This document shows positions 39,140-53,675 of a stretch of DNA of 64,000 nt, one piece after another; positions within the stretch are counted from its first letter, which is position 1; each line of letters begins with the position of its first letter. A model generated the notes under the pieces. The model made no database searches. It had not been told where the DNA came from and saw only the letters and a program-made list of their open reading frames with translations. The translations under genes and the position numbers were made by a program. The stretch is from the NCBI RefSeq assembly GCF_005403045.1, contig NZ_BJCL01000018.1, positions 1 to 64,000 on the forward strand, read 5' to 3'. Source of the DNA: Pseudaquabacterium pictum (lineage in GTDB: Bacteria; Pseudomonadota; Gammaproteobacteria; Burkholderiales; Burkholderiaceae_C).

Positions 39140-39373
39140 TCAGGCGGCCAGCCACTGTTCGACCTTGCCGCGGCTGGGCACGCCACCGGCGTGCACCACC
39201 TTGCCGTCGATCACCACGCCCGGGGTGCTCATCACGCCGTAGCCCATGATCTCGCGCAGTTCCTCGACCTTGGCCAGCGTCACCGCCACGCCCTTGTCCT
39301 TGGCCACCTGCTCGATCAGTGCGATGGTGTTCTTGCAGTTGGCACAGCCGGTGCCGAGTACCTTGATGTCCAT
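39140..39373 (-). CDS. Small thioredoxin-like protein (TM0996 type)
   Basis: 77-aa redox-active protein with the active site GTGCANCKNTIALI (CxxC at residues 10-13) and the cis-Pro in VMSTPGVVIDGKVV. Small proteins of this group are often encoded next to DUF318-type permeases and arsenic or sulfur genes and may move electrons or bind metal. It is cytoplasmic, as no signal is present. It lies between the MBL and rhodanese genes with short gaps. Confidence 0.88.
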   Translation of the reverse strand: MDIKVLGTGCANCKNTIALIEQVAKDKGVAVTLAKVEELREIMGYGVMSTPGVVIDGKVVHAGGVPSRGKVEQWLAA

Positions 39374-40626: not shown

Positions 40627-41679
40627 TTACAGCACTGCGTTGAAGACGAAGCCCACAATCAGGATGCCGGTGGCGACGACCGCAGCAAAAGTGGCGATCA
40701 AGCGCACCTTGAGCACCTTGCGCAGGATGATCATCTCGGGCAGCGAGAGCGCAATGACGCTCATCATGAAAGCCAGTACGGTGCCCAGCGCAGCGCCCTT
40801 GGCCAGCAGCGCCTGCACGATGGGGATGATCCCGGCGGCGTTGGTGTACATCGGCACGCCGATCAGCACCGCCAGCGGCACCGACCACCAGGCGTCTTTG
40901 CCCATGAACGAGGCCATGAAGTCCTGCGGCACCCAGCCGTGGATGCCGGCACCGATGGCGATGCCCGCAAGGATGTAGGGCCACACCTTGCCCACGATCT
41001 CGCGCACGCTGGCGAACCCGCCTTCGATGCGCTCTACCAATGTCATGCCGTCACTGCCGGCGACGGCCTGCACCTTGGGCATGTCGCGCACCCAGTCCTC
41101 TAGGTGGGCTTCCATCTTCAGGCGGCCGATGACCCAGCCGGCCACGATGGCCACCGAGAGACCGAGGCCGAGGTAAAGCGCTGCGATCTTCCAGCCGAAC
41201 AGGCCGAACAGCAGTGCCAGGGCCACCTCGTTGACCATCGGCGCCGAGATGAGGAACGAGAAGGTCACGCCCAACGGCACGCCGGCCTGCACGAAGCCGA
41301 TGAACAGCGGGACGGCCGAGCACGAGCAGAACGGTGTCACGATGCCCAGACTGGCGGCCATGACGTTCGCCGCGCCTTCGCTGCGACCGGCCAGCAGCGC
41401 GCGGGTGCGCTCCGGCGTGAAGTAGGAGTTGATCATCCCCATCACGAACACCACGGCGGTGAGCAGCAGCAGCACCTTGGGCGTGTCGTAGAAGAAGAAC
41501 TGCAGCGCACCACCCAGGTGGCTGTCTCGATCCACGGGCAAGGCTGCCACCAGGGCTTCCGACGCAGGGATCAGTGACTGGTACAGCGCCCACCAGGCGG
41601 CCGCAGCCAAGAGCAGGAAAGTGCGCGGGTGCTGCCGCGGCATCTGCAGCGTGCGTTGGGACAGGGACAGACTGGTCAT
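40627..41679 (-). CDS. DUF318-type permease (ArsP-like)
   Basis: 350-aa permease with eight or more predicted helices and the family signature GIVTPFCSCSAVPLFIGFVQ (CxC within a membrane helix), plus FLISAPMVNEVALALLFGLF and GVPMYTNAAGIIPIVQ. Related proteins (ArsP) export trivalent organoarsenicals, but for most members the substrate is unknown; with sox and thioredoxin genes around, a sulfur compound is an alternative. The frame reaches to 42045, but the ATG at 41679 is the natural start before the first helix. Confidence 0.85.
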   Translation of the reverse strand: MTSLSLSQRTLQMPRQHPRTFLLLAAAAWWALYQSLIPASEALVAALPVDRDSHLGGALQFFFYDTPKVLLLLTAVVFVMGMINSYFTPERTRALLAGRSEGAANVMAASLGIVTPFCSCSAVPLFIGFVQAGVPLGVTFSFLISAPMVNEVALALLFGLFGWKIAALYLGLGLSVAIVAGWVIGRLKMEAHLEDWVRDMPKVQAVAGSDGMTLVERIEGGFASVREIVGKVWPYILAGIAIGAGIHGWVPQDFMASFMGKDAWWSVPLAVLIGVPMYTNAAGIIPIVQALLAKGAALGTVLAFMMSVIALSLPEMIILRKVLKVRLIATFAAVVATGILIVGFVFNAVL

Positions 41680-41732
41680 GTTGGGGCCTCTTGCATTGAA
41701 GACGAAGAGCCCCGCAAAAGGATTCGCGGCTG

Positions 41733-42257
41733 TTACAAGAAGCGCGCGATGCCCTCGATGTCTTCCGGGAACAGCTGACCGGCTTCGCTCATCACGACCC
41801 GACCGTCGCGCCCCAGCACCACCGTCACCGGCAGGCCTTTGGGTTTGGGCAGCACGCGGGCGATGTCGGGCGAGACCCAGGCAGATGCGAAGCCGTAGCC
41901 CTTGCGCGCCAGGTGGGCTGCGGCTTCCTCCGGTTTCTTGTCGATCGACAGGCCGATGACCCGCAGGCCGCGGGGACGGTGGGTGCGTTGCAGTTGGTCG
42001 ATCAGCGGCGACTGCACCGCACAGAATGGGCACCAGCTGGCCCACCAGTACAGCACCACGACCTGACCGGCCAGGTCGGCCGTGCGCAAGCCGCTGCCGT
42101 CCAGCAACGTCAGGTCCGGCAGGGGCAGACGCGACCCGACGGGTGGCGGCGGGCCGGCATTCCGTTCGCTGGCCGGTGGGGTTTGTGCCTGGGCGCCGGC
42201 CGCGACCCCACCCGCTGCCATCAAGGCGAACTGGAGCAGCGGTCGGCGCGAGGGCAT
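41733..42257 (-). CDS. TlpA-like thiol:disulfide protein
   Basis: 174-aa exported redoxin. The signal is RRPLLQFALMAAGGVAAG and ends near GAQAQ. The thioredoxin domain has VVVLYWWASWCPFCAVQSPL (CPFC) and the cis-Pro in KGLPVTVVLG. TlpA-type proteins reduce cytochrome and enzyme thiols in the periplasm. It follows soxZ by 44 bp and gives the operon a second periplasmic thiol reductant besides the SoxW-like protein. Confidence 0.87.
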   Translation of the reverse strand: MPSRRPLLQFALMAAGGVAAGAQAQTPPASERNAGPPPPVGSRLPLPDLTLLDGSGLRTADLAGQVVVLYWWASWCPFCAVQSPLIDQLQRTHRPRGLRVIGLSIDKKPEEAAAHLARKGYGFASAWVSPDIARVLPKPKGLPVTVVLGRDGRVVMSEAGQLFPEDIEGIARFL

Positions 42258-42614: not shown

Positions 42615-43073
42615 TCAGCCTCCACACCCGCCGAGGGTGACCTTGATTTCCTTCTGGGCGTACAGCACCCGGCCGTCCGCCATCATCGCCAGCGCGATCA
42701 CGTTCGAGGACTGGCCCATCTTCACCCGGGTGGCGATGTTGGCGTCCACGGCGTCGGTGACGTCGAAGACCGCTGCCAGCGCGTTCGGGTTCTTCTCCAC
42801 CAGCAGCGCCAGCCGCTTGACGCCGGCCAGCGAGGTGGATGCGCCGACCGGTACGACGGCGCCGTTCTCGGCGATATCGGGTCCGGTGATGGTCACATCG
42901 GCACTCGGCGTGGGCGCGCTCCCGCCCAGGGCCTTGACCGCCTCGGCCAGCGTCTTGGCGTCGAAGGCGTCCTTGCTCCAGGCGGCCAGCGCCGCAGCGG
43001 GCAGCAGGCCTGCGCCGGCCATCAGCGCGGCCACGCGCGCACCATGGCCCAGGGTCTCGCGACGGGTGATCAT
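42615..43073 (-). CDS. soxY: Sulfur-carrier protein SoxY
   Basis: 152-aa SoxY. It has a Tat signal (ITRRETLGHGARVAALMAG) and the C-terminal GGCGG swinging arm whose Cys carries the sulfur substrate between Sox enzymes. The frame continues upstream within soxX, but the ATG at 43073 starts the Tat signal. It lies between soxX and soxZ in the usual order. Confidence 0.94.
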   Translation of the reverse strand: MITRRETLGHGARVAALMAGAGLLPAAALAAWSKDAFDAKTLAEAVKALGGSAPTPSADVTITGPDIAENGAVVPVGASTSLAGVKRLALLVEKNPNALAAVFDVTDAVDANIATRVKMGQSSNVIALAMMADGRVLYAQKEIKVTLGGCGG

Positions 43074-43084
43074 GATGGGCGCCC

Positions 43085-43741
43085 TCACTGGTTGATCGGC
43101 GAAGCCGGGTCGAGCAGGTAGGCCGTCAGGTCGGCCACCTGTTTCGGCGACAGGATGCCCTTGTGGCCCAGGCGCGGCATGTTGGAGCAGGCGTTGTAGA
43201 CCTTGGCGTTGTAGATCTTCTCGTAGGTGTACTTGACGATGGGCTCGCTTTGCCCGCGGACCTTGCCGTAGCTCTGCAGCGAGGTGCCCAGGTTGCCGAA
43301 GGCCACTTCCTTCTTCTCGCCCTGGTGGCAGGCGTAGCAATTGCCGCCGCGCACGGCGTTGGGGTTGCTGGGAATGAAGCTGCCGATGCGGTAGCCGAAA
43401 CCATCGTTGAATATCTTCTGGCCAGCCTTCCAGTCGCCCAACAGGCGCCCACCCTCGGGGTAGGCCATGTTCCTGGCTTCACGGGCACGGATGGCTTCGG
43501 CCAGGGCGTCTCCAGGTTTGCCGCGCGTGGTGGTGCAGTCCTTCTGGGTGTCGTCCTGCTGCAGGCGACTCAGGTCCTGGCCTGGTCCGGGCAGGAAACT
43601 CTCCGCCACGTACTGGTCGACCAGGCGGGTGGTCTCTGCTGCGGGGTCGGCTGGCGTTGCACAGCCGGCCAGAATGGCGACGGCGCAGAGGGCTCCGGCG
43701 GTTAGCGCAATGGGGGTTCGGGTAGGGGAACGGTTCATCAT
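43085..43741 (-). CDS. soxX: Cytochrome subunit SoxX
   Basis: 218-aa c-type cytochrome, subunit of SoxAX, which links thiosulfate to the SoxY thiol. The N-terminal signal carries a lipobox-like LAGC (AILAGCATP), so it may be lipid-anchored. The haem site is GGNCYACHQGEKKE (CxxCH) and the distal Met is in CSNMPRLGHKG. Start at 43741 (GGGAGGG in front), with a second ATG three bases later. The first 80 residues are an extension as in long SoxX proteins. Confidence 0.92.
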   Translation of the reverse strand: MMNRSPTRTPIALTAGALCAVAILAGCATPADPAAETTRLVDQYVAESFLPGPGQDLSRLQQDDTQKDCTTTRGKPGDALAEAIRAREARNMAYPEGGRLLGDWKAGQKIFNDGFGYRIGSFIPSNPNAVRGGNCYACHQGEKKEVAFGNLGTSLQSYGKVRGQSEPIVKYTYEKIYNAKVYNACSNMPRLGHKGILSPKQVADLTAYLLDPASPINQ

Positions 43742-43758
43742 GTTTCGGCCCTCCCGGT

Positions 43759-44598
43759 TCAGCGACGCATGCCCGGCAGATCGAGGGTGCTGCCCTCGGC
43801 CTGCTTGGTCAGGTAGGAGATCAGCGCCACCGCGGCCGGCGAGCCCAGGTCGATGTCGGGCAGCCGCATCTGCCAGTGGCAGTCCCACATGCGGTGCTGC
43901 ATGGTGCGGACGGCGTTGTGCGACACGCGATAGGTGGGCCAGGAACTCATCACGTTGTCGGTGTGCTTCTTGTTCAGGCCGTTGAACAGCGACTGCAGCC
44001 GGATGCGCTTGCCGTCCTCGGCATGGCAGGTGGCGCATGAGAAGTCCATCGGACCATGCTGGCGCCAATACAGCGCCTCGCCGACCTTCACCGACTCGAG
44101 CTCCTTCGGATGCTTCGTCGGCGGGCTGAGCTTCATGCCGTCAGATTGCGCCGCCACGTAGGCGGTGATGACCTCGAAATCGGTGTTCGACTGGTTCTTG
44201 GTCTCGTTGGCGAAAGGCAGCGTCTTGACCTGCTTCGCGTCGCGGCCCTGCAGCGTGACCATGCAGGTCACCAGCCGCGACTCGAGATCCTGCACGCGCT
44301 GGGTGTCGGCAAACCAGCGCGGCAGTTGCGCATAGGCGCCCTTGAGCACACCGGGCCCGAGGCCGAAGTCGCACTTCTCCAGCGTGGTCGCCTTGGGACC
44401 GGCGGCGGTCCTGAACAGGCGCTCACCTCGGTCGATCATGAGCAGGCCAGGGTTGCCGTCCTTGTCGGCCAGCGCCTGCCGGTAGGCCTGCACCGACGGG
44501 TCGGTGTCCTGGGCCACCGCCGGATGGGTGGCCATGGCCAGGGTGGCCGCTGCGCAGGCGCCAAGTTCCCGCCAGCGCTGTCTTGCGCTTGTTGTCAT
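43759..44598 (-). CDS. soxA: Cytochrome subunit SoxA, single-haem type
   Basis: 279-aa SoxA. The signal peptide ends near PAVAQ. One haem motif is present, FSCATCHAEDGK near residue 190; the N-terminal haem site of the two-haem form is absent, leaving CDFGLG and LVTCMVTL, as in single-haem SoxA proteins. The catalytic Cys, modified to a persulfide, is in RMWDCHWQMRLP. First gene of the sox part, 96 bp downstream of the Crp/Fnr regulator. No soxB or soxCD is near. Confidence 0.93.
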   Translation of the reverse strand: MTTSARQRWRELGACAAATLAMATHPAVAQDTDPSVQAYRQALADKDGNPGLLMIDRGERLFRTAAGPKATTLEKCDFGLGPGVLKGAYAQLPRWFADTQRVQDLESRLVTCMVTLQGRDAKQVKTLPFANETKNQSNTDFEVITAYVAAQSDGMKLSPPTKHPKELESVKVGEALYWRQHGPMDFSCATCHAEDGKRIRLQSLFNGLNKKHTDNVMSSWPTYRVSHNAVRTMQHRMWDCHWQMRLPDIDLGSPAAVALISYLTKQAEGSTLDLPGMRR

Positions 44599-45980: not shown

Positions 45981-46000
45981 AATTCAAGTATTGTTGAATT
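45981..46000. promoter_or_regulatory. ArsR operator
   Basis: Perfect inverted repeat AATTCAA-GTATTG-TTGAATT with 7-bp arms, directly before the arsR ATG at 46002. ATTCAA and TTGAAT half-sites are the usual target of ArsR-type repressors. The ATG begins two bases after it, so bound ArsR would also block translation start. Confidence 0.75.
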
Positions 46001-46001
46001 C

Positions 46002-46343
46002 ATGGATAAACACAGTGTCGTTCAGGCGCTCGCAGCGCTGGCCCACCCGGTGCGCCTGGAGGCTTTCCGGGCCCTGGTGGTGGCCGGCCACGACGGTCTT
46101 GCCCAGAAGGCGCTGGCCGAAGCGGTCGGCGTGGGGCCGACCAACCTGGCCTTCCACCTGAAGGAGTTGGCCACGGCCGGCCTCGTCAACCAGGCGCAGG
46201 CGGGCCGCTTCGTCATCTACCGCGCCGCCTTCGAGCAGATGAACGGTCTGCTCACCTACCTCACCCTCAACTGCTGCCAGGGCCTGCCCAAGGCAGCGGC
46301 TGCCGACGCAGCGGTCGCCGCGTCCGATGCCTGCGGCTGCTGA
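46002..46343 (+). CDS. arsR: ArsR-family metalloregulator
   Basis: 113-aa winged-helix repressor. DNA-binding segments are LAHPVRLEAFRALVVAG and VGVGPTNLAFHLKELATAGL. Metal-binding cysteines are in the C-terminal TLNCCQGLP pair, with a further CGC at the very end (DACGC). The paired Cys at the C-terminal side is one of several As(III)-site types found in ArsR. It starts directly after its operator and leads the operon arsR - fusion - MFS, with about 30 bp before the next gene. Confidence 0.9.
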   Translation: MDKHSVVQALAALAHPVRLEAFRALVVAGHDGLAQKALAEAVGVGPTNLAFHLKELATAGLVNQAQAGRFVIYRAAFEQMNGLLTYLTLNCCQGLPKAAAADAAVAASDACGC

Positions 46344-46372: not shown

Positions 46373-48379
46373 ATGTCCGCCATCCGTTTGCGCCAGGCCC
46401 ATCCCGCCGACTGGCCCGCCGTTGAAAGCCTGCTGATCGCCAACCGTCTGCCGGTGGACGGCGCTCGGGAACACCTGTCCACCTTCGTGCTCGCCCAGTC
46501 TGGGCTGGAGGTCGTCGGCTGTGCGGGTGTCGAGCCGCGTGGCGAAGTGGCCCTGCTGCGCTCGGTCGCGGTGGCGCCCGGCCTGCACCGACAGGGCATC
46601 GGCCAGCAGATGGTGTCGCTGCTGCTCGATGAAGCGCGGCGTCGCAACTTCAAGACGCTCGCGTTGTTGACGACCACCGCCCGGCGCTGGTTCGAAGGCT
46701 TCGGCTTCAAGGTCGCCGACCGCGCGACAGTACCTGCCGCGCTTAAGGCGTCGGCCGAGTTCCAGGGCGCCTGCCCCGCCAGCGCCGACTTCATGGTGCT
46801 GACGCTTCAGAGCGATAGCCCGTCCGGGCTCGAAGCCTTGCCGGTCGCCGTGCACGGCGCCGGCCCGGTCGGCCTTGCAGCGGCCGCGCAGCTGATCGAG
46901 CGTGGCATCCCGTTCGTCATCCTCGAAGCCGCATCCACGGTCGGCGCCAACCTGCTCGACTACGGCCACGTGCGGCTGTTCTCACCCTGGCGCTACGACA
47001 TCGACCCGGCGATGGCCAGACTGCTGCAGCCGACCGGCTGGCAGTCGCCTTCAGCCGACGAACTGCCGCTGGCGGGCGAAGTCGTGCAGCGCGTGCTGGA
47101 ACCCTTTGCGCGTCTGCCGCAGGTGGCATCGGTGCTCCAACTGTCGACGAAGGTGATCGCCGTCACCCGGGAGGGCTTCGACAAGGTGAAGAGTGCCGGC
47201 CGGGAGAACGCGCCGTTCGTGATCCGTGCCGTCCGCGAGGGCCGGACCTTCGAGCTCAAAGCGCGCGCGGTGATCGACTCCACCGGCACCTGGAACACGC
47301 CCAACCCGGTTGGCGCCAGCGGCTTGCCGGCGATCGGTGAACCTGAGGTGGCGGACCGCATCTTCTACGGCATCCCCGACGTGCTCGGTACGCACCGAAG
47401 CCGCTATGCCGGCCAGCGCACTCTCGTGGTCGGCGCCGGCCACTCGGCGGCCAACGCGCTGCTGGCTCTTGCCGAGCTGGCCTGGCAAGCGCCGGGCACG
47501 CGGCTGCTGTGGTCGGTCCGGTCACCGGTGCTCACGCGTGTCTTCGGCGGTGGAGACGCCGATGCGCTGCCGGCCCGCGGGGCGCTCGGCAGTTCGCTGC
47601 GCAACTTGCGCGACTCGGGCGGCCTGACCTTCCACGCCGGACTGCGCATCACGCGCATCGAACGACAGGGCGATGCGCTGGGCATTGTGGGTGTCGACGC
47701 CGACGGACATGAGCAGCGGCTCGACGGCATCGACCAGATCATCTGCGCTACCGGCCAGCGCCCCGACCTCTCGATCACGAGCGAGCTGCGCGTGAAGCTG
47801 GACCCTTGGCTGGAGTCCAACGAGGCCCTCGGTCCGCTGATCGATCCGAACCTGCACAGCTGCGGCACGGTGCGGCCGCATGGGCACCGCGAACTCGCCC
47901 ATCCGGAGCCGGGGCTGTACACCGTCGGGGTCAAGAGCTATGGCCGCGCGCCGACCTTCCTGATGGCCACGGGCTTCGAGCAGGTGCGCTCGGTGGTGGC
48001 CGCATTGGCGGGCGACCTGGAAGCTGCCGACCGGGTCGAGCTCGATCTGCCGGAAACGGGCGTCTGCAGTGTCGGCGGCAGCGCGACGGAGGGCCTGGCC
48101 GGCGCGGCGTGCTGTGGCCCTGCGACCGCTGGTGCTGCGGCCTCTGCCGCCGAGCCAACCGCCGCTTGTGGTCCGGCGTCCTGTGGCACCGCTGTCCCGG
48201 CCTCGACGCCTGCCGCCGTGCAGGCGGTGGGTTGCTGCGGCGGAGCCCCTCGGGCCAACGCATCGGCCTGCTGCGCCCTCGATGAACTGAAGAAGGCCGA
48301 GGGTGCGGAAGGCTGTGGCTGCGGCACAACCCTGCCGCCCGCACGCGAGCCGGCTCGCGCCAAGGCGGCCTGCTGCTGA
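46373..48379 (+). CDS. ArsN2-like acetyltransferase fused to FAD monooxygenase, Cys-rich tail
   Basis: 668-aa fusion. Residues 1-150 form a GNAT acetyltransferase of the ArsN2 type (acetyl-CoA site VAPGLHRQGIGQQMVSLLL). Residues 155-555 form an FAD/NADPH oxidoreductase of the ArsO group with HGAGPVGLAAAAQLIERG, the NADPH site LVVGAGHSAANALLALAELA and the end IICATGQRPD. From about 560 a tail holds 13 Cys in CC and CGC pairs (AACCGP, GCCGG, ACCAL, GCGCG, AACC). In known ars operons arsN and arsO are separate genes. The ATG follows GGAG. It could acetylate and oxidise arsenic compounds captured by the tail; that is inference. Confidence 0.88.
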   Translation: MSAIRLRQAHPADWPAVESLLIANRLPVDGAREHLSTFVLAQSGLEVVGCAGVEPRGEVALLRSVAVAPGLHRQGIGQQMVSLLLDEARRRNFKTLALLTTTARRWFEGFGFKVADRATVPAALKASAEFQGACPASADFMVLTLQSDSPSGLEALPVAVHGAGPVGLAAAAQLIERGIPFVILEAASTVGANLLDYGHVRLFSPWRYDIDPAMARLLQPTGWQSPSADELPLAGEVVQRVLEPFARLPQVASVLQLSTKVIAVTREGFDKVKSAGRENAPFVIRAVREGRTFELKARAVIDSTGTWNTPNPVGASGLPAIGEPEVADRIFYGIPDVLGTHRSRYAGQRTLVVGAGHSAANALLALAELAWQAPGTRLLWSVRSPVLTRVFGGGDADALPARGALGSSLRNLRDSGGLTFHAGLRITRIERQGDALGIVGVDADGHEQRLDGIDQIICATGQRPDLSITSELRVKLDPWLESNEALGPLIDPNLHSCGTVRPHGHRELAHPEPGLYTVGVKSYGRAPTFLMATGFEQVRSVVAALAGDLEAADRVELDLPETGVCSVGGSATEGLAGAACCGPATAGAAASAAEPTAACGPASCGTAVPASTPAAVQAVGCCGGAPRANASACCALDELKKAEGAEGCGCGTTLPPAREPARAKAACC

Positions 48380-49548
48380 TGCTGAAGCGCCGCAGCGGCA
48401 CGGTTGCGGCGCTGGGCACGGCCCAGACTCTCGCTTGGGCCTCAACCTACTACCTGCCGGCCATCCTGGCCGCGCCGATGGCGCGCGAGCTGGGCGTCTC
48501 GACGCCGACAGTGTTTGCGGCCTTCAGCGGCGCGCTGATCGTGTCGGCGTTCGTGGGGCCGCGAGCGGGCGCGGCCATCGACCGCCATGGTGGGCGGCCC
48601 GTGCTGATGCTGACGAGCATCGTCTTCGCACTCGGCCTCGCCGGCCTGGGGCTGGCTCGGGACGTCGTCGGCCTCTTCGCCGCCTGGGTGGTGCTGGGCA
48701 TCGGTATGGGCAGTGGGCTCTACGAGGCGGCGTTCGCATCGCTCGTGCGCCTGTACGGGAAGGACGCACGCAGCAGCATCACGGCCATCACCCTGATCGC
48801 CGGGTTCGCCAGCACGGTCGGCTGGCCGCTGTCTGCGGTGCTTGAGGCCGAGTACGGCTGGCGCGCTGCGTGCTTCACCTGGGCCGCACTGCACCTCGTG
48901 CTGGGGCTGCCGCTGAATGCGTTGCTGCCGATCGCCAGAAAGGCTGCGCCAACGGCCACTGACGCACCGATGGAGGTCGGTACGCATCTCTCGCCATCGT
49001 CAGCGCCCGAGTCCCAGATGCCGACGGTGGTGCTGTCGTTCGTCTTCGCGGCGACGTGGTTCATCTCGACCTCGATGGCGGCCCACCTGCCGCAGCTGAT
49101 GCTGGCCGCCGGTGCGACGGTGGCGACAGCCATCCTCGTCGGCAGCCTGATCGGGCCGTCGCAGGTGGCCGCGCGTCTTCTCGAGTTCGGCTTGCTGCGC
49201 CGGGTTCATCCTTTGCTGTCCGCCCGCTTGGCGGCTGCAGCGCACCCGCTGGGTGTCGCACTGCTGCTGATCGCAGGGCCCGTGGCTGCGCCGCTCTTCG
49301 GCGTGCTGCACGGGGCGGGCAACGGCATCCTGACCATTGCCAAGGGCACGCTGCCGCTGGTGATCTTCGGGCCGCAGGGATACGGCCTCCGGCAGGGCTT
49401 GCTCATGGTGCCGGCACGCGTCGCGCAGGCACTGGCGCCCTGGCTGTTCGGCATGGCGCTGGACGTTTGGGGAACTGGCGCCCTGGCCGTGTCTGGCGGC
49501 CTCGGGCTCGCAGCCTTACTGGCTCTGCTGGCTTTGCGGGGGAGCTGA
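48379..49548 (+). CDS. MFS transporter of the arsenic operon
   Basis: 389-aa major facilitator with twelve predicted helices. The motif A equivalent is GPRAGAAIDRHGGRPVLML, and GIGMGSGLYEAAFASLVRLY and AKGTLPLVIFGPQGYGL are further conserved-looking stretches. Its ATG overlaps the stop of the fusion gene (TGATG), so it is translationally coupled. Likely exporter of the product of the fusion enzyme, similar to arsenic MFS exporters ArsK and ArsJ in role but not identified as either one. Confidence 0.82.
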   Translation: MLKRRSGTVAALGTAQTLAWASTYYLPAILAAPMARELGVSTPTVFAAFSGALIVSAFVGPRAGAAIDRHGGRPVLMLTSIVFALGLAGLGLARDVVGLFAAWVVLGIGMGSGLYEAAFASLVRLYGKDARSSITAITLIAGFASTVGWPLSAVLEAEYGWRAACFTWAALHLVLGLPLNALLPIARKAAPTATDAPMEVGTHLSPSSAPESQMPTVVLSFVFAATWFISTSMAAHLPQLMLAAGATVATAILVGSLIGPSQVAARLLEFGLLRRVHPLLSARLAAAAHPLGVALLLIAGPVAAPLFGVLHGAGNGILTIAKGTLPLVIFGPQGYGLRQGLLMVPARVAQALAPWLFGMALDVWGTGALAVSGGLGLAALLALLALRGS

Positions 49549-50555: not shown

Positions 50556-53500
50556 TCAAAGGGCTTCAGCGTCCTTGTCGTGCATCAGCGCCTCGGCCGG
50601 CTTGCGACCGAAGAGCCAGAACATCGCGGGCGTGAGGAAGGTGTCGAGCATGGTCGAACTGATGAGGCCTGAGAAAATCACCACGGCCACCGGGTGCAGC
50701 ACTTCGGTCCCGGGCTGCTCTGCCTCGAACAGCAGCGGGGCGAGCGCGAAGGCCGTGACGAGCGCCGTCATCAGCACCGGGCTCAGCCGCTCAAGCGAGC
50801 CGCGCAGGATCATCTTCTGGTCGAAGGACTCGCCCTCGAAGCGCATCAGGTTGATGTAGTGGCTGACCTTCAGGATGCCGTTGCGCACCGAGATGCCCGC
50901 CAGTGTGATGAAGCCGACCAGGGCCGCTACCGACAGCGGCTGGCCCGACAGCCACAGGCCGATCACCGCGCCCACCAGGGCGAGCGGGATGTTCACCATG
51001 ATCAGCGCCGACAGCGTGGCCGACTTGTAGCGGCTGTAGAGCACCACGAACATCAGCGTGAGCGACACGATGGACAGCAGGCCGACGAGCCGCGAAGCCT
51101 CCTCCTGCGCCTGGAACTGGCCACCCAGGGTGATGAAGTAGCCCTCGGGCAGCTTCGTCTCGGCCACCACCTTGCGGATGTCGGCCACGATCTCCGACAG
51201 AGCGCGCCCGGAGGCGTTGGCCGACAGCACGATGCGCCGCTTGCCGTCGTCGCGACTGATCTGGTTCGGGCCGTCGCCGTCCTCGATGGTGGCGATCTTC
51301 GACAGCGGGATGCGCCCGTTCGGCGTCTCGATCAGGATCTGACCCAGGCCTTCCACAGACCGCGCCGATTCCGGCAGCTTGACCACCAGTGCGAATCGGC
51401 GGCTGCCCTCGACGATCTGCGTGACCTTCTCGCCCTCGACCAGGGCCTGCAGCGCGTTCAGCACCTGGGGTGCCGGCACGCCGTACTGCGCCGCCGCGGC
51501 GTAGTCGATGCGCACCTTGATCTGTGGTGCCAGCACCTGCTTCTCGATCTGCAGGTCGGCAATGCCTTGGATCGCAGCCAGCTTCGCGCGCAGCGCATCG
51601 GCTTGGCCGCGCAGGGCGTCCAGGTCCTCGCCGAAGATCTTGATGGCGATCTGCGAGCGCACGCCCGACAGCATGTGGTCGATACGGTGCGAGATGGGCT
51701 GGCCGATCTCCAGCGCGGCCGGCAGGTTCACCAGGCGCGAGCGGATGTCGGCCTTGATCTCGTCCATGCTCCGAGTGAGTTCGGCCGTCGGCTTCAGGCC
51801 CACGTCGAGTTCGCTGACGTGCACGCCTTCCGCATGCTCGTCCAGCTCGGCCCGGCCACTGCGGCGCCCGACGTGCGTGACCTCGGGCACCTGCTTGACC
51901 AGCACCTCGGCCTGACGGGCCAGCGCTGACGATTCCGTCAAGGTGACGCCCGGATTCAGGCGCAGGCCGATCAGCAGCGTGCCCTCGTTAAAGGGCGGCA
52001 GAAAGGTCGTCGGGAAGAACGGCACCGCCACCGCGGCCACCAGCACTGCGGTACCCGCCGCCGCCATGGCGGCCTTCGGCCGATCCAGCACGCCCTGCAG
52101 GCTGCTGCGGTAGCGCGCCTTCAGCCAGGCCAGCACCTTGGTGTCGCCGTGATCCAGATTCTTCATCCGCGGCAGCAGGTAGAAGCTGAGCACCGGCGTC
52201 ACCGTCACAGAGACGATCAACGAGGCCAGCGTCGAGACAATGAAGGCGATGCCCAGTGGCACGAACAGCTTGCCCTCCAGCCCCGGCAGCGCGAACAGCG
52301 GGATGAAGACGAGCACGATGATGACCGTCGCGTACAGGATGGCTGACCGCACCTCCATCGTGGCGTGCGCGACCACCTCGATCGGGTGCAGGCGACTGTG
52401 GGGATGGTTGGCTCGGTCGGCCTTCAGCCGCCGCAGCACGTTCTCGACTCCGACCACCGCGTCGTCGACCAGGCCACCGATGGCGATGGCCAGCCCACCG
52501 AGCGTCATCGTGTTGATCGACAGCCCGAAATACTTGAAGACCAGCGCGGTGATGAAGATCGACGCCGGGATGGCCGTCAGCGCGATGATGGTGGGTCGCA
52601 GCGTTCCGAGGAAGAAGAACAGGATCACCGCCACGAAGATCGAAGCGCCGATCAGCTTGCCCTGCAGCGTGGTGATCGAGGCCTCGATGAAGCTGGCCTG
52701 GCGGAAGGTCACGCGCGGTGCCTCCATGCCGGCCGGCAGTGACGCCTTCAGCCCGACCAGCGCGTCCTCGATGGACTTGGTGAGCGCGATGGTGTCGGCG
52801 GTCGGCTGCTTCTGGATGCCCAGGATCACCGCCGGCTTGCCTTCGTATCCTGCGTCGCCGCGCTTGAGCGCCGCGGCGAAAGTCACCTCGGCGATCTGGC
52901 GCATCAGGATCGGTTGTCCGTCCTTGGAGGTCAGCGCCAGGTTCTTCAGGTCATCGAGCCGGGAGGTCCGACCGAGGTTGCGAATCAGGTACTCGCGCCC
53001 GTTCAGCTCCAAAAAGCCTCCGGAGGTGTTGGACGAGTAGCCCTTCAGCGCGCCTTCGAGCTGGTCGTGCGTGATGCCCAGCTCCGCCATGCGGGTGGTG
53101 TTCGGCTGAACCTGGAACTGGCGGACCTCGCCGCCGATCGGGATCACCTGCGCCACGCCCGGCACCGACAGCAGCCGTGGGCGCAGCACCCAGTCCGCGT
53201 ACTCGCGCACGGCCATCGCGCTGATCTTGCTCGGATCGACCGGGATGGCGATCTGCATGATCTCGCCCATGATTGAGCTGATCGGGCCCATGCGCGGCAC
53301 CACGCCTTCGGCGATGCCTTCCTCCATCGAAGACAGTCGTTCCGAAACCAGTTGCCGTGCCCGGAAGATGTCGGTGCTCCAGTCGAAGGTGACGTAGAGG
53401 AAGGACAGGCCTGCCGACGAAGTCGAGCGCACCGACTCCACGCCAGGCAGACCGTTCATGGTCGTCTCCAGCGGGAAGGTGATGAGCTGCTCCACCTCCT

Positions 53501-53675
53501 CGGCGGCCATGCCGCCGGCCTCGGTCATGATGGTGACGGTGGGCTTGTTGAGGTCCGGGAACACGTCCACCGGGGTGGTGGAGAGCGTGAACGCGCCGTA
53601 GGCCATCAGCACGACGCTGGCGATGATCACCAGCAGCCGGTTCGTCAGGCTGTTATCGAGTAGCCACTTGAACAT
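50556..53675 (-). CDS. Heavy-metal RND efflux pump (CzcA/CusA family)
   Basis: 1039-aa inner-membrane RND transporter. It starts FKWLLDNSLTNRLLVIIASV, has the proton-relay helix IGGLVDDAVVGVENVLRRLK with two Asp and a Glu, the porter-domain stretches typical of HME pumps, and the ending YINLMRFEGESFDQKMILRG. Metal ion is not fixed by sequence alone; czcI and the CadR-type regulator nearby suggest Zn(II), Cd(II) or Co(II). The start is the first ATG, one base after the adaptor stop. Confidence 0.92.
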   Translation of the reverse strand: MFKWLLDNSLTNRLLVIIASVVLMAYGAFTLSTTPVDVFPDLNKPTVTIMTEAGGMAAEEVEQLITFPLETTMNGLPGVESVRSTSSAGLSFLYVTFDWSTDIFRARQLVSERLSSMEEGIAEGVVPRMGPISSIMGEIMQIAIPVDPSKISAMAVREYADWVLRPRLLSVPGVAQVIPIGGEVRQFQVQPNTTRMAELGITHDQLEGALKGYSSNTSGGFLELNGREYLIRNLGRTSRLDDLKNLALTSKDGQPILMRQIAEVTFAAALKRGDAGYEGKPAVILGIQKQPTADTIALTKSIEDALVGLKASLPAGMEAPRVTFRQASFIEASITTLQGKLIGASIFVAVILFFFLGTLRPTIIALTAIPASIFITALVFKYFGLSINTMTLGGLAIAIGGLVDDAVVGVENVLRRLKADRANHPHSRLHPIEVVAHATMEVRSAILYATVIIVLVFIPLFALPGLEGKLFVPLGIAFIVSTLASLIVSVTVTPVLSFYLLPRMKNLDHGDTKVLAWLKARYRSSLQGVLDRPKAAMAAAGTAVLVAAVAVPFFPTTFLPPFNEGTLLIGLRLNPGVTLTESSALARQAEVLVKQVPEVTHVGRRSGRAELDEHAEGVHVSELDVGLKPTAELTRSMDEIKADIRSRLVNLPAALEIGQPISHRIDHMLSGVRSQIAIKIFGEDLDALRGQADALRAKLAAIQGIADLQIEKQVLAPQIKVRIDYAAAAQYGVPAPQVLNALQALVEGEKVTQIVEGSRRFALVVKLPESARSVEGLGQILIETPNGRIPLSKIATIEDGDGPNQISRDDGKRRIVLSANASGRALSEIVADIRKVVAETKLPEGYFITLGGQFQAQEEASRLVGLLSIVSLTLMFVVLYSRYKSATLSALIMVNIPLALVGAVIGLWLSGQPLSVAALVGFITLAGISVRNGILKVSHYINLMRFEGESFDQKMILRGSLERLSPVLMTALVTAFALAPLLFEAEQPGTEVLHPVAVVIFSGLISSTMLDTFLTPAMFWLFGRKPAEALMHDKDAEAL

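Follow-up and report, generated by a model that had tools for sequence, protein, structure and literature searches.

The window, a stretch of 64,000 nucleotides of Pseudaquabacterium pictum, contains a gene at 46373-48379 on the forward strand that, according to the list of open reading frames and the translation, stays open from its ATG through 668 codons without interruption. The sequence-only reading of this DNA had claimed that one gene encodes a GNAT acetyltransferase, a flavoprotein and a Cys-rich tail, and the unbroken frame, the profile matches and the count of cysteines confirmed this. Its architecture, in which an ArsN2 acetyltransferase is fused to an arsenic-operon flavoprotein behind arsR, is conserved.

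The gene lies, as had also been proposed, between arsR and an overlapping gene for an MFS pump. Upstream, at 46002-46343 (+), we found a gene for an ArsR-type repressor of 113 amino acids, which has a Cys pair (NCC) and ends in CGC; in the profile search it was above the cut-off for HTH_20 and reached 52.9 bits with HTH_metalloreg, for which the cut-off is 55. Downstream, at 48379-49548 (+), lies the gene for an MFS transporter of 389 amino acids, whose start codon (48379-48381) overlaps the stop codon of the fusion (48377-48379) by one base. This transporter is a distant relative of ArsK and scored 232.2 bits on the ArsK model NF033733, below the cut-off of 400. When the distinct flavoprotein sequences described below were compared, the next gene downstream was a relative of the MFS gene in 26 of the 32 fused and in 21 of the 39 unfused cases. 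It seems probable that arsR, the fusion and the MFS gene form a three-gene operon under the control of ArsR.

An inverted repeat, ATTCAA-N6-TTGAAT, is located at 45982-45999 (+), 2 bp before the arsR start codon, and had been read as the operator of arsR. The window has a single copy of the core, TCAA-N6-TTGA, where 0.27 copies are expected, and at least one copy was present in 25 of 100 shuffled sequences. The core alone is not rarer than chance, so that the case for an operator-like element rests on its position and on its repetition in eight related loci (L003, L004, L007, L008, L019, L022, L030 and L033), where the full repeat again lies 1-2 bp before arsR. The consensus of ArsR sites quoted in an excerpt of PMC9137774 is ATCAA-N6-TTGAT.

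arsR was found directly upstream of 6 of the 32 fused genes and somewhere in the locus in 23 of them. In L011, arsC-type, aquaporin-type, ArsH and MarR-type genes separate arsR from the fusion (ArsH and a weak MarR match were assigned by model, the arsC-type and aquaporin-type genes by eye). We also noticed a Cys-containing MarR-like regulator (VVADCC...QCHLLTELGR) directly 5' of the fusion in L005 (5510-5995), L011 (5501-5998) and L026 (5503-5982), loci in which arsR stands farther off; the copy in L011 was below the model cut-offs. This protein is possibly a second arsenical sensor.

Several other genes were observed around the operon, all on the reverse strand. The sulfur-oxidation genes for SoxY, SoxX and SoxA (42615-44598) lie beside it, a permease gene at 40627-42045 has SaoE and SO_0444 as its nearest models and is below both cut-offs, and a thioredoxin of the MTH895/ArsE type is encoded at 39140-39373. 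A heavy-metal RND pump of the CusA/CzcA type (50556-53675) is located downstream of the operon.

The ArsN2-type acetyltransferase domain

The first part of the fused protein (46373-46810 (+), residues 1-146) belongs to the ArsN2 type of GNAT domain, as the earlier reading had placed it at residues 1-150: residues 13-143 matched the ArsN2 model NF040501 with 143.3 bits, above the curated cut-off of 125. The acetyl-CoA loop (RQGIGQ) is intact, and its glycines G75 and G77 are kept by every one of the 31 fused sequences compared. By simple pairwise counts, dN/dS of the GNAT domain was 0.11-0.37 in 10 of 11 pairs, compared with 0.08-0.21 for the flavoprotein domain; the eleventh pair, L015 and L018, is nearly identical and thus uninformative. 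The GNAT domain is under purifying selection where it is retained. Its best match among solved structures was N-acetylglutamate synthase. An excerpt of PMC6465285, a paper that names the ArsN2 clade and centres on ArsN1, places ArsN2 as the clade closest to the N-acetylglutamate synthases, and there it is ArsN1, not ArsN2, that was shown to acetylate arsinothricin. The function of ArsN is called unclear in passages of PMC6205960 and PMC12607644.

An ArsN2-type match at E ≤1e-25 was found in 25 of 398 genomes of the phylum, the window's genome included. When we searched about 1.5 kb of flanking sequence at 26 other ArsN2-type loci (six of them below the model cut-off, three of them ArsN2-ArsC fusions), the flavoprotein was found at none, so that the link between ArsN2 and the flavoprotein is strong only in the group of the window. 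Inspected by eye, these 26 loci adjoin arsR, acr3, arsC or arsH, or stand outside ars operons. The ArsN2-ArsC reading frames were continuous in L120, L121 and L123, where the ArsC part was recognised by eye. Fusions of ArsN2 with ArsH were suspected from open frames in L111, L124 and L126, and translation resolved these into separate overlapping genes. In L129 (976-2118 (-)) an ArsN2-type GNAT and a second GNAT, which by eye looks like a phosphinothricin acetyltransferase, share one reading frame. In two of the 14 annotated plasmid loci that were viewed, an ArsN-type gene lies near an unfused flavoprotein: in Niallia it belongs to ArsN1 family A, and in Ensifer it encodes an ArsN1-like GNAT that falls short of the model cut-off.

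The flavoprotein family and its Cys-rich tail

The second part of the protein (46838-48049 (+), residues 156-559) carries an FAD loop, GAGPVG, at residue 162, an NADP loop, GAGHSA, at residue 354, and Cys497 within HSCGTV; Pfam Pyr_redox_3 (residues 162-471) and Pyr_redox_2 (residues 271-501) matched above cut-off. We collected 71 distinct members of this family, and the FAD loop was present in all of them and the NADP loop in 65. Cys497 and Cys565, the latter in TGVC, are invariant in alignment A2 (n=37), and across all 71 members the cysteine of TGVC is present in 71 and HSCGT in 67. Many relatives contain a TGA codon within the match, which raised the idea of selenocysteine; in loci on the forward strand it proved to be the ordinary terminal stop immediately after the C-terminal Cys.

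The domain at about residues 155-555 had been described as an ArsO-like FAD/NADPH oxidoreductase. The flavoprotein in this description held, whereas ArsO did not: on the ArsO model NF040505 the window domain scored 34.5 bits against a cut-off of 425, a true ArsO can occur next to it, and a fingerprint is missing. Class B monooxygenases have the fingerprint F-x-G-x3-H, which is present in the ArsO of Streptomyces sp. FR-008 and in 0 of 71 members of the window's family. On the plasmid of strain FR-008, arsR-acr3-ArsO is accompanied by a separately located homologue of the window domain, after which an MFS gene follows; the ArsO model gave 554.1 bits for the true ArsO and 51.9 bits for the homologue. 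This homologue shares 51% identity with the window protein over 438 columns. The FR-008 ArsO (356 amino acids) gave a single significant alignment, to residues 178-371 of the window protein, with 31% identity over 204 columns; both are members of one flavoprotein superfamily. In three fused loci (L026, L031 and L035) a separate ArsO is found close to the fusion. Judged by these comparisons, the flavoprotein is ArsO-like at the level of the superfamily only.

The order arsR-flavoprotein-MFS was found in Ensifer, Hydrogenophaga, Shinella, Neotabrizicola, Rhizobium and Nitrobacter, and in Priestia with one small gene between; in Rhodococcus and Roseomonas the flavoprotein homologues adjoin MFS genes. 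The 14 annotated plasmid loci span Alphaproteobacteria, Betaproteobacteria, Actinomycetota and Bacillota. An arsR-type gene is mostly close by in them, and an MFS gene lies at most three genes downstream in 11, the exceptions being L067, L080 and L081. The flavoprotein thus belongs to a widespread arsenic-operon family distinct from ArsO. This family is probably ArsV, an identification based on operon logic. The order arsR-flavoprotein-MFS, which the window shares, is what we take to be the arrangement of ArsV/ArsW operons, presumably arsR-arsV-arsW or arsR-arsV-arsK. No model named ArsV was present among the best 25 of 44 NCBIfam matches. Passages of a review (PMC10080717) assign the oxidation of methylarsenite to ArsV and the export of methylarsenate to ArsW; the ArsV paper, by its title in the reference list of PMC11719878, describes ArsV as widely present in soil bacteria. 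Judging by their titles, the reports on ArsV and ArsW (Zhang 2022, Chen 2021) likewise concern an arsenic-operon flavoprotein and an exporter; compared by description only, an ArsN domain goes unmentioned there, whereas the window protein has one.

The structure of the protein was predicted with a mean pLDDT of 73.4 and a pTM of 0.59, and pLDDT was below 50 at residues 464-502, which include Cys497, and across most of the tail. In a fold search ranked by E-value the flavin-dependent monooxygenase DiatB came first, followed by YpdA, with N-hydroxylases after them; by target TM-score the YpdA reductases reached 0.72-0.76 versus 0.50-0.53 for DiatB. The YpdA profile also matched the flavoprotein family weakly. 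The predicted fold resembles both flavin monooxygenases and YpdA-type reductases.

The tail (48050-48376 (+), residues 560-668) ends in CC and is mostly of low model confidence. A tail of about 100 residues with 13 cysteines had been expected, and we counted 13 Cys in the 109 residues from PETGVC onwards compared with four in the first 559 residues, an enrichment with a binomial p of ~1e-10 if Cys makes up 1% of residues. The comparison with metallothionein fared less well: residues 560-668 matched no Pfam family at E ≤1 and no metallothionein profile, and the richness in Cys is the sole likeness. Within the tail, a conserved Cys module, CCGGAPRANASACCALDELKKAEGAEGCGC, is encoded at 48233-48322 (+) (residues 621-650). 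The full module was found in the C-terminal part of 27 of the 71 distinct members (6 fused and 21 unfused), at least three tail cysteines in 70, and a C-terminus of CC, with or without one further residue, in 46, including all 32 fused sequences. In the phylum of the window, genes of the families f48 and f51 that have no GNAT end in TGVC...CCGGPAK..ASACCAADETAKK.G.SGCGC or similar, and the f48 rows group with the Nitrobacter plasmid gene in the flavoprotein tree. The idea that the tail is a novelty of the fusion was therefore dropped, as it occurs throughout the family with or without GNAT; to judge from this spread, the Cys tail is older than the fusion and a standing feature of the flavoprotein family.

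In two loci, L034 (5758-6001) and L040 (5779-6001), the Cys module was observed at the N-terminal end of the flavoprotein, in the same reading frame and in the place of GNAT, and the C-terminal tails there are without it. A Cys pattern that is kept while the module switches ends would fit a flexible arsenic-binding arm. The dN/dS of the tail was 0.08-0.93 (10 pairs) and exceeded that of both GNAT and flavoprotein in 7 of these pairs, and in several fused members the Cys pattern is degraded, with only four to six cysteines left. This looser constraint counts against a strict role of the tail.

Distribution and history of the fusion

Scanning genome contigs, we obtained 40 loci, of which 27 were unbroken fusions, two were broken fusions (L018 and L039), ten were unfused flavoproteins (L041 among them, truncated by the end of its contig) and one was a piece of GNAT. 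These loci and further genomes and plasmids yielded the 71 distinct flavoprotein sequences, 15 near-identical duplicates being merged; L039 and L061 (frame breaks), L041 (contig end), L042 (GNAT only) and the window copies L001 and L068 were left out of the flavoprotein tree. Of the 71, 32 are fused with similar linkers, 31 of them unbroken and one, L018, broken in GNAT, a proportion biased towards fused forms because the query was fused. L018 was excluded from the GNAT conservation and the GNAT tree, and was kept in the flavoprotein tree and, past the break, in the dN/dS pairs.

Where their group was known by title or by kinship, the fused loci belong to Burkholderiales, with the exceptions of L007 from a Silanimonas bin, L029 from a Klebsiella bin and L035, assigned to Pseudomonadota only. 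Mis-binning or transfer may explain two contigs: that of L007, which lies near L008, a Rubrivivax row, and the 7.3-kb contig of L029 (Klebsiella pneumoniae bin), which is probably a Burkholderiales contig in the wrong bin. In the family of the window, 19 of 200 genomes had a strong match to the flavoprotein, of which 11 were fused, 7 were unfused and 1 was broken, and the class-level search added two other carriers among 369 genomes at E ≤1e-30, both unfused. We also searched 72,556 plasmid records for the fused form; 258 had a match and none of these covered 80% of the query, which led us to reject a spread of the fusion on plasmids.

In the flavoprotein tree, the 32 fused rows shared a clade of 43 (support 100/99) with 11 unfused rows, and nine changes of fusion state were needed, six of which were forced by well-supported branches. 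In the GNAT tree the fused GNATs needed two changes, with a single change in 26% of the bootstrap trees, and a single clade of fused GNATs was not rejected (p-AU 0.319). The distances between GNATs and between flavoproteins were correlated across the 31 fused sequences (rho 0.66), and 0 of 2000 permutations gave a value as high. In the unfused L019 and L021, what appear to be the first residues of GNAT (ISLRPAQPTE and SLRPAHPADE, respectively) stand directly before the flavoprotein, and these leftovers look like the scars of in-frame deletions; in the other nine unfused members of the clade no GNAT scar was seen. Read together, these alignments and trees support one fusion followed by repeated loss of GNAT as the simplest history, and repeated gain of GNAT is a possible alternative.

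Fusions of ArsN with ArsC and with ArsD are described in passages of PMC6205960. They likewise tie ArsN to an arsenic protein; the partner there is ArsC or ArsD, not a flavoprotein. The window domain is above the ArsN2 cut-off and joined to a flavoprotein, in contrast to the 26 other ArsN2-type loci without one, and a search of the open-licence literature found no ArsN-flavoprotein fusion. The novelty claimed for the gene is thus narrower than had been supposed: a flavoprotein with a Cys tail beside arsR and an MFS gene is widespread, and what is new is ArsN2 tethered to this arsenic-operon flavoprotein, mostly in one bacterial group.

Possible function of the fused protein

We tentatively favour a reading, which we rate a little short of an even chance, in which the flavoenzyme oxidises a trivalent arsenical delivered by the tail and destined for export, with the tethered acetyltransferase acting on amino-bearing arsenicals. 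The target of the operon would be a trivalent arsenical, an organoarsenical or an antimonite-like thiophile. The flexible Cys tail (CCGG...ACC...GCGC...CC) would bind the trivalent arsenical and pass it on to the active site, possibly close to the conserved Cys497, where it would be oxidised with NADPH and FAD to the pentavalent form; this product would no longer bind thiols and would leave through the MFS protein. Amino-bearing arsenicals would be N-acetylated by the tethered ArsN2, and one protein could thus disarm both ends of such a molecule. The substrate, the redox direction, the transfer between cysteines, acetylation and export are steps that we infer, and the oxidative direction in particular is judged from operon context. 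The fused architecture is a hint that acetyltransferase and flavoenzyme share one arsenic compound as their target. No arsenite methyltransferase over the cut-off was found in the host genome, which counts against this mechanism, as do the small number of fused genes with arsR immediately before them, the looser constraint on the tail, the low model confidence around Cys497 and the missing flavoprotein at the 26 other ArsN2-type loci; an acr3 gene of the host is on another contig.

The GNAT domain could also be a passenger that has no arsenical substrate of its own and was fused by operon proximity, serving glutamate-like metabolites, dimerisation or solubility, a possibility that we regard as real and somewhat doubtful. 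The domain is missing from 11 members of the fused clade, so that acetylation is dispensable, and ArsN2 joins its neighbours readily, being also fused to ArsC (L120, L121 and L123; a passage of PMC6205960). Purifying selection and the retention of the acetyl-CoA loop glycines in every unbroken fused sequence argue otherwise, as does the presence of ArsN1 family A in Niallia and of the ArsN1-like GNAT in Ensifer near unfused members of the family.

MerA, the mercuric reductase, is likewise a flavoprotein; it bears an appendage of metal-binding cysteines and has a pair of Cys at its C-terminus. The flavoprotein of the fusion might be a reductase or a metal(loid)-thiol recycler of the YpdA, thioredoxin reductase or MerA kind, with the Cys tail as a redox relay, delivering trivalent arsenic to the pump; we consider this rather unlikely. 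The window protein resembles MerA in its Cys appendage and terminal CC, homology of the appendages not being implied; the two differ in the arsenic context of the window protein and in its flavoprotein domain, which has no CxxC, Cys458 and Cys497 being the only cysteines there before the tail, and this speaks against a reductase. Among the listed fold matches YpdA had the highest target TM-score, which weakens the reading of oxidation and strengthens that of a reductase, whereas the first match by E-value is a flavin monooxygenase. The weak match of the family to the YpdA profile points towards reduction as well, and with the monooxygenase fingerprint missing in 71 of 71 members and the better TM-scores of YpdA, oxidation over reduction is not established. 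The nearest relative of the MFS protein is ArsK, which by the title in the reference list of PMC11719878 exports trivalent arsenicals, the form that a reductase would supply. That gene prediction or assembly joined two genes, for which nothing speaks except the high GC content with many overlapping reading frames, is practically out of the question: the frameshift that the sequence-only reading had wanted checked was not found, and 32 distinct fused sequences with similar linkers, 31 of them without a stop or frame break, already refute it.

A more specific form of the oxidation reading, which we hold to be improbable, is that ArsN2 acetylates trivalent hydroxyarsinothricin or arsinothricin and that the flavoprotein oxidises the same molecule, held by the tail, and passes it to the MFS pump. 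Both compounds are glutamate analogues, and the best solved relatives of the ArsN2 domain acetylate glutamate. An excerpt of PMC8552651 names trivalent hydroxyarsinothricin, whose arsenic is trivalent, as an intermediate in a soil Burkholderia. The review PMC12607644, in the passage at hand, credits arsN, with its clade unstated, with arsenate resistance together with arsC or arsD, and this speaks for inorganic arsenic instead. If the arsinothricin reading were true, ArsN2 would gain its missing substrate class and the operon would be one for antibiotic resistance rather than a general arsenic operon. The covalent link of ArsN2 to a flavoenzyme, together with the purifying selection on GNAT, is a direct and testable clue to the substrate of ArsN2, and the capture and transfer of arsenic can be dissected with the natural forms that the family offers, some having GNAT and others lacking it, some with the Cys module at the N-terminal and others at the C-terminal end.
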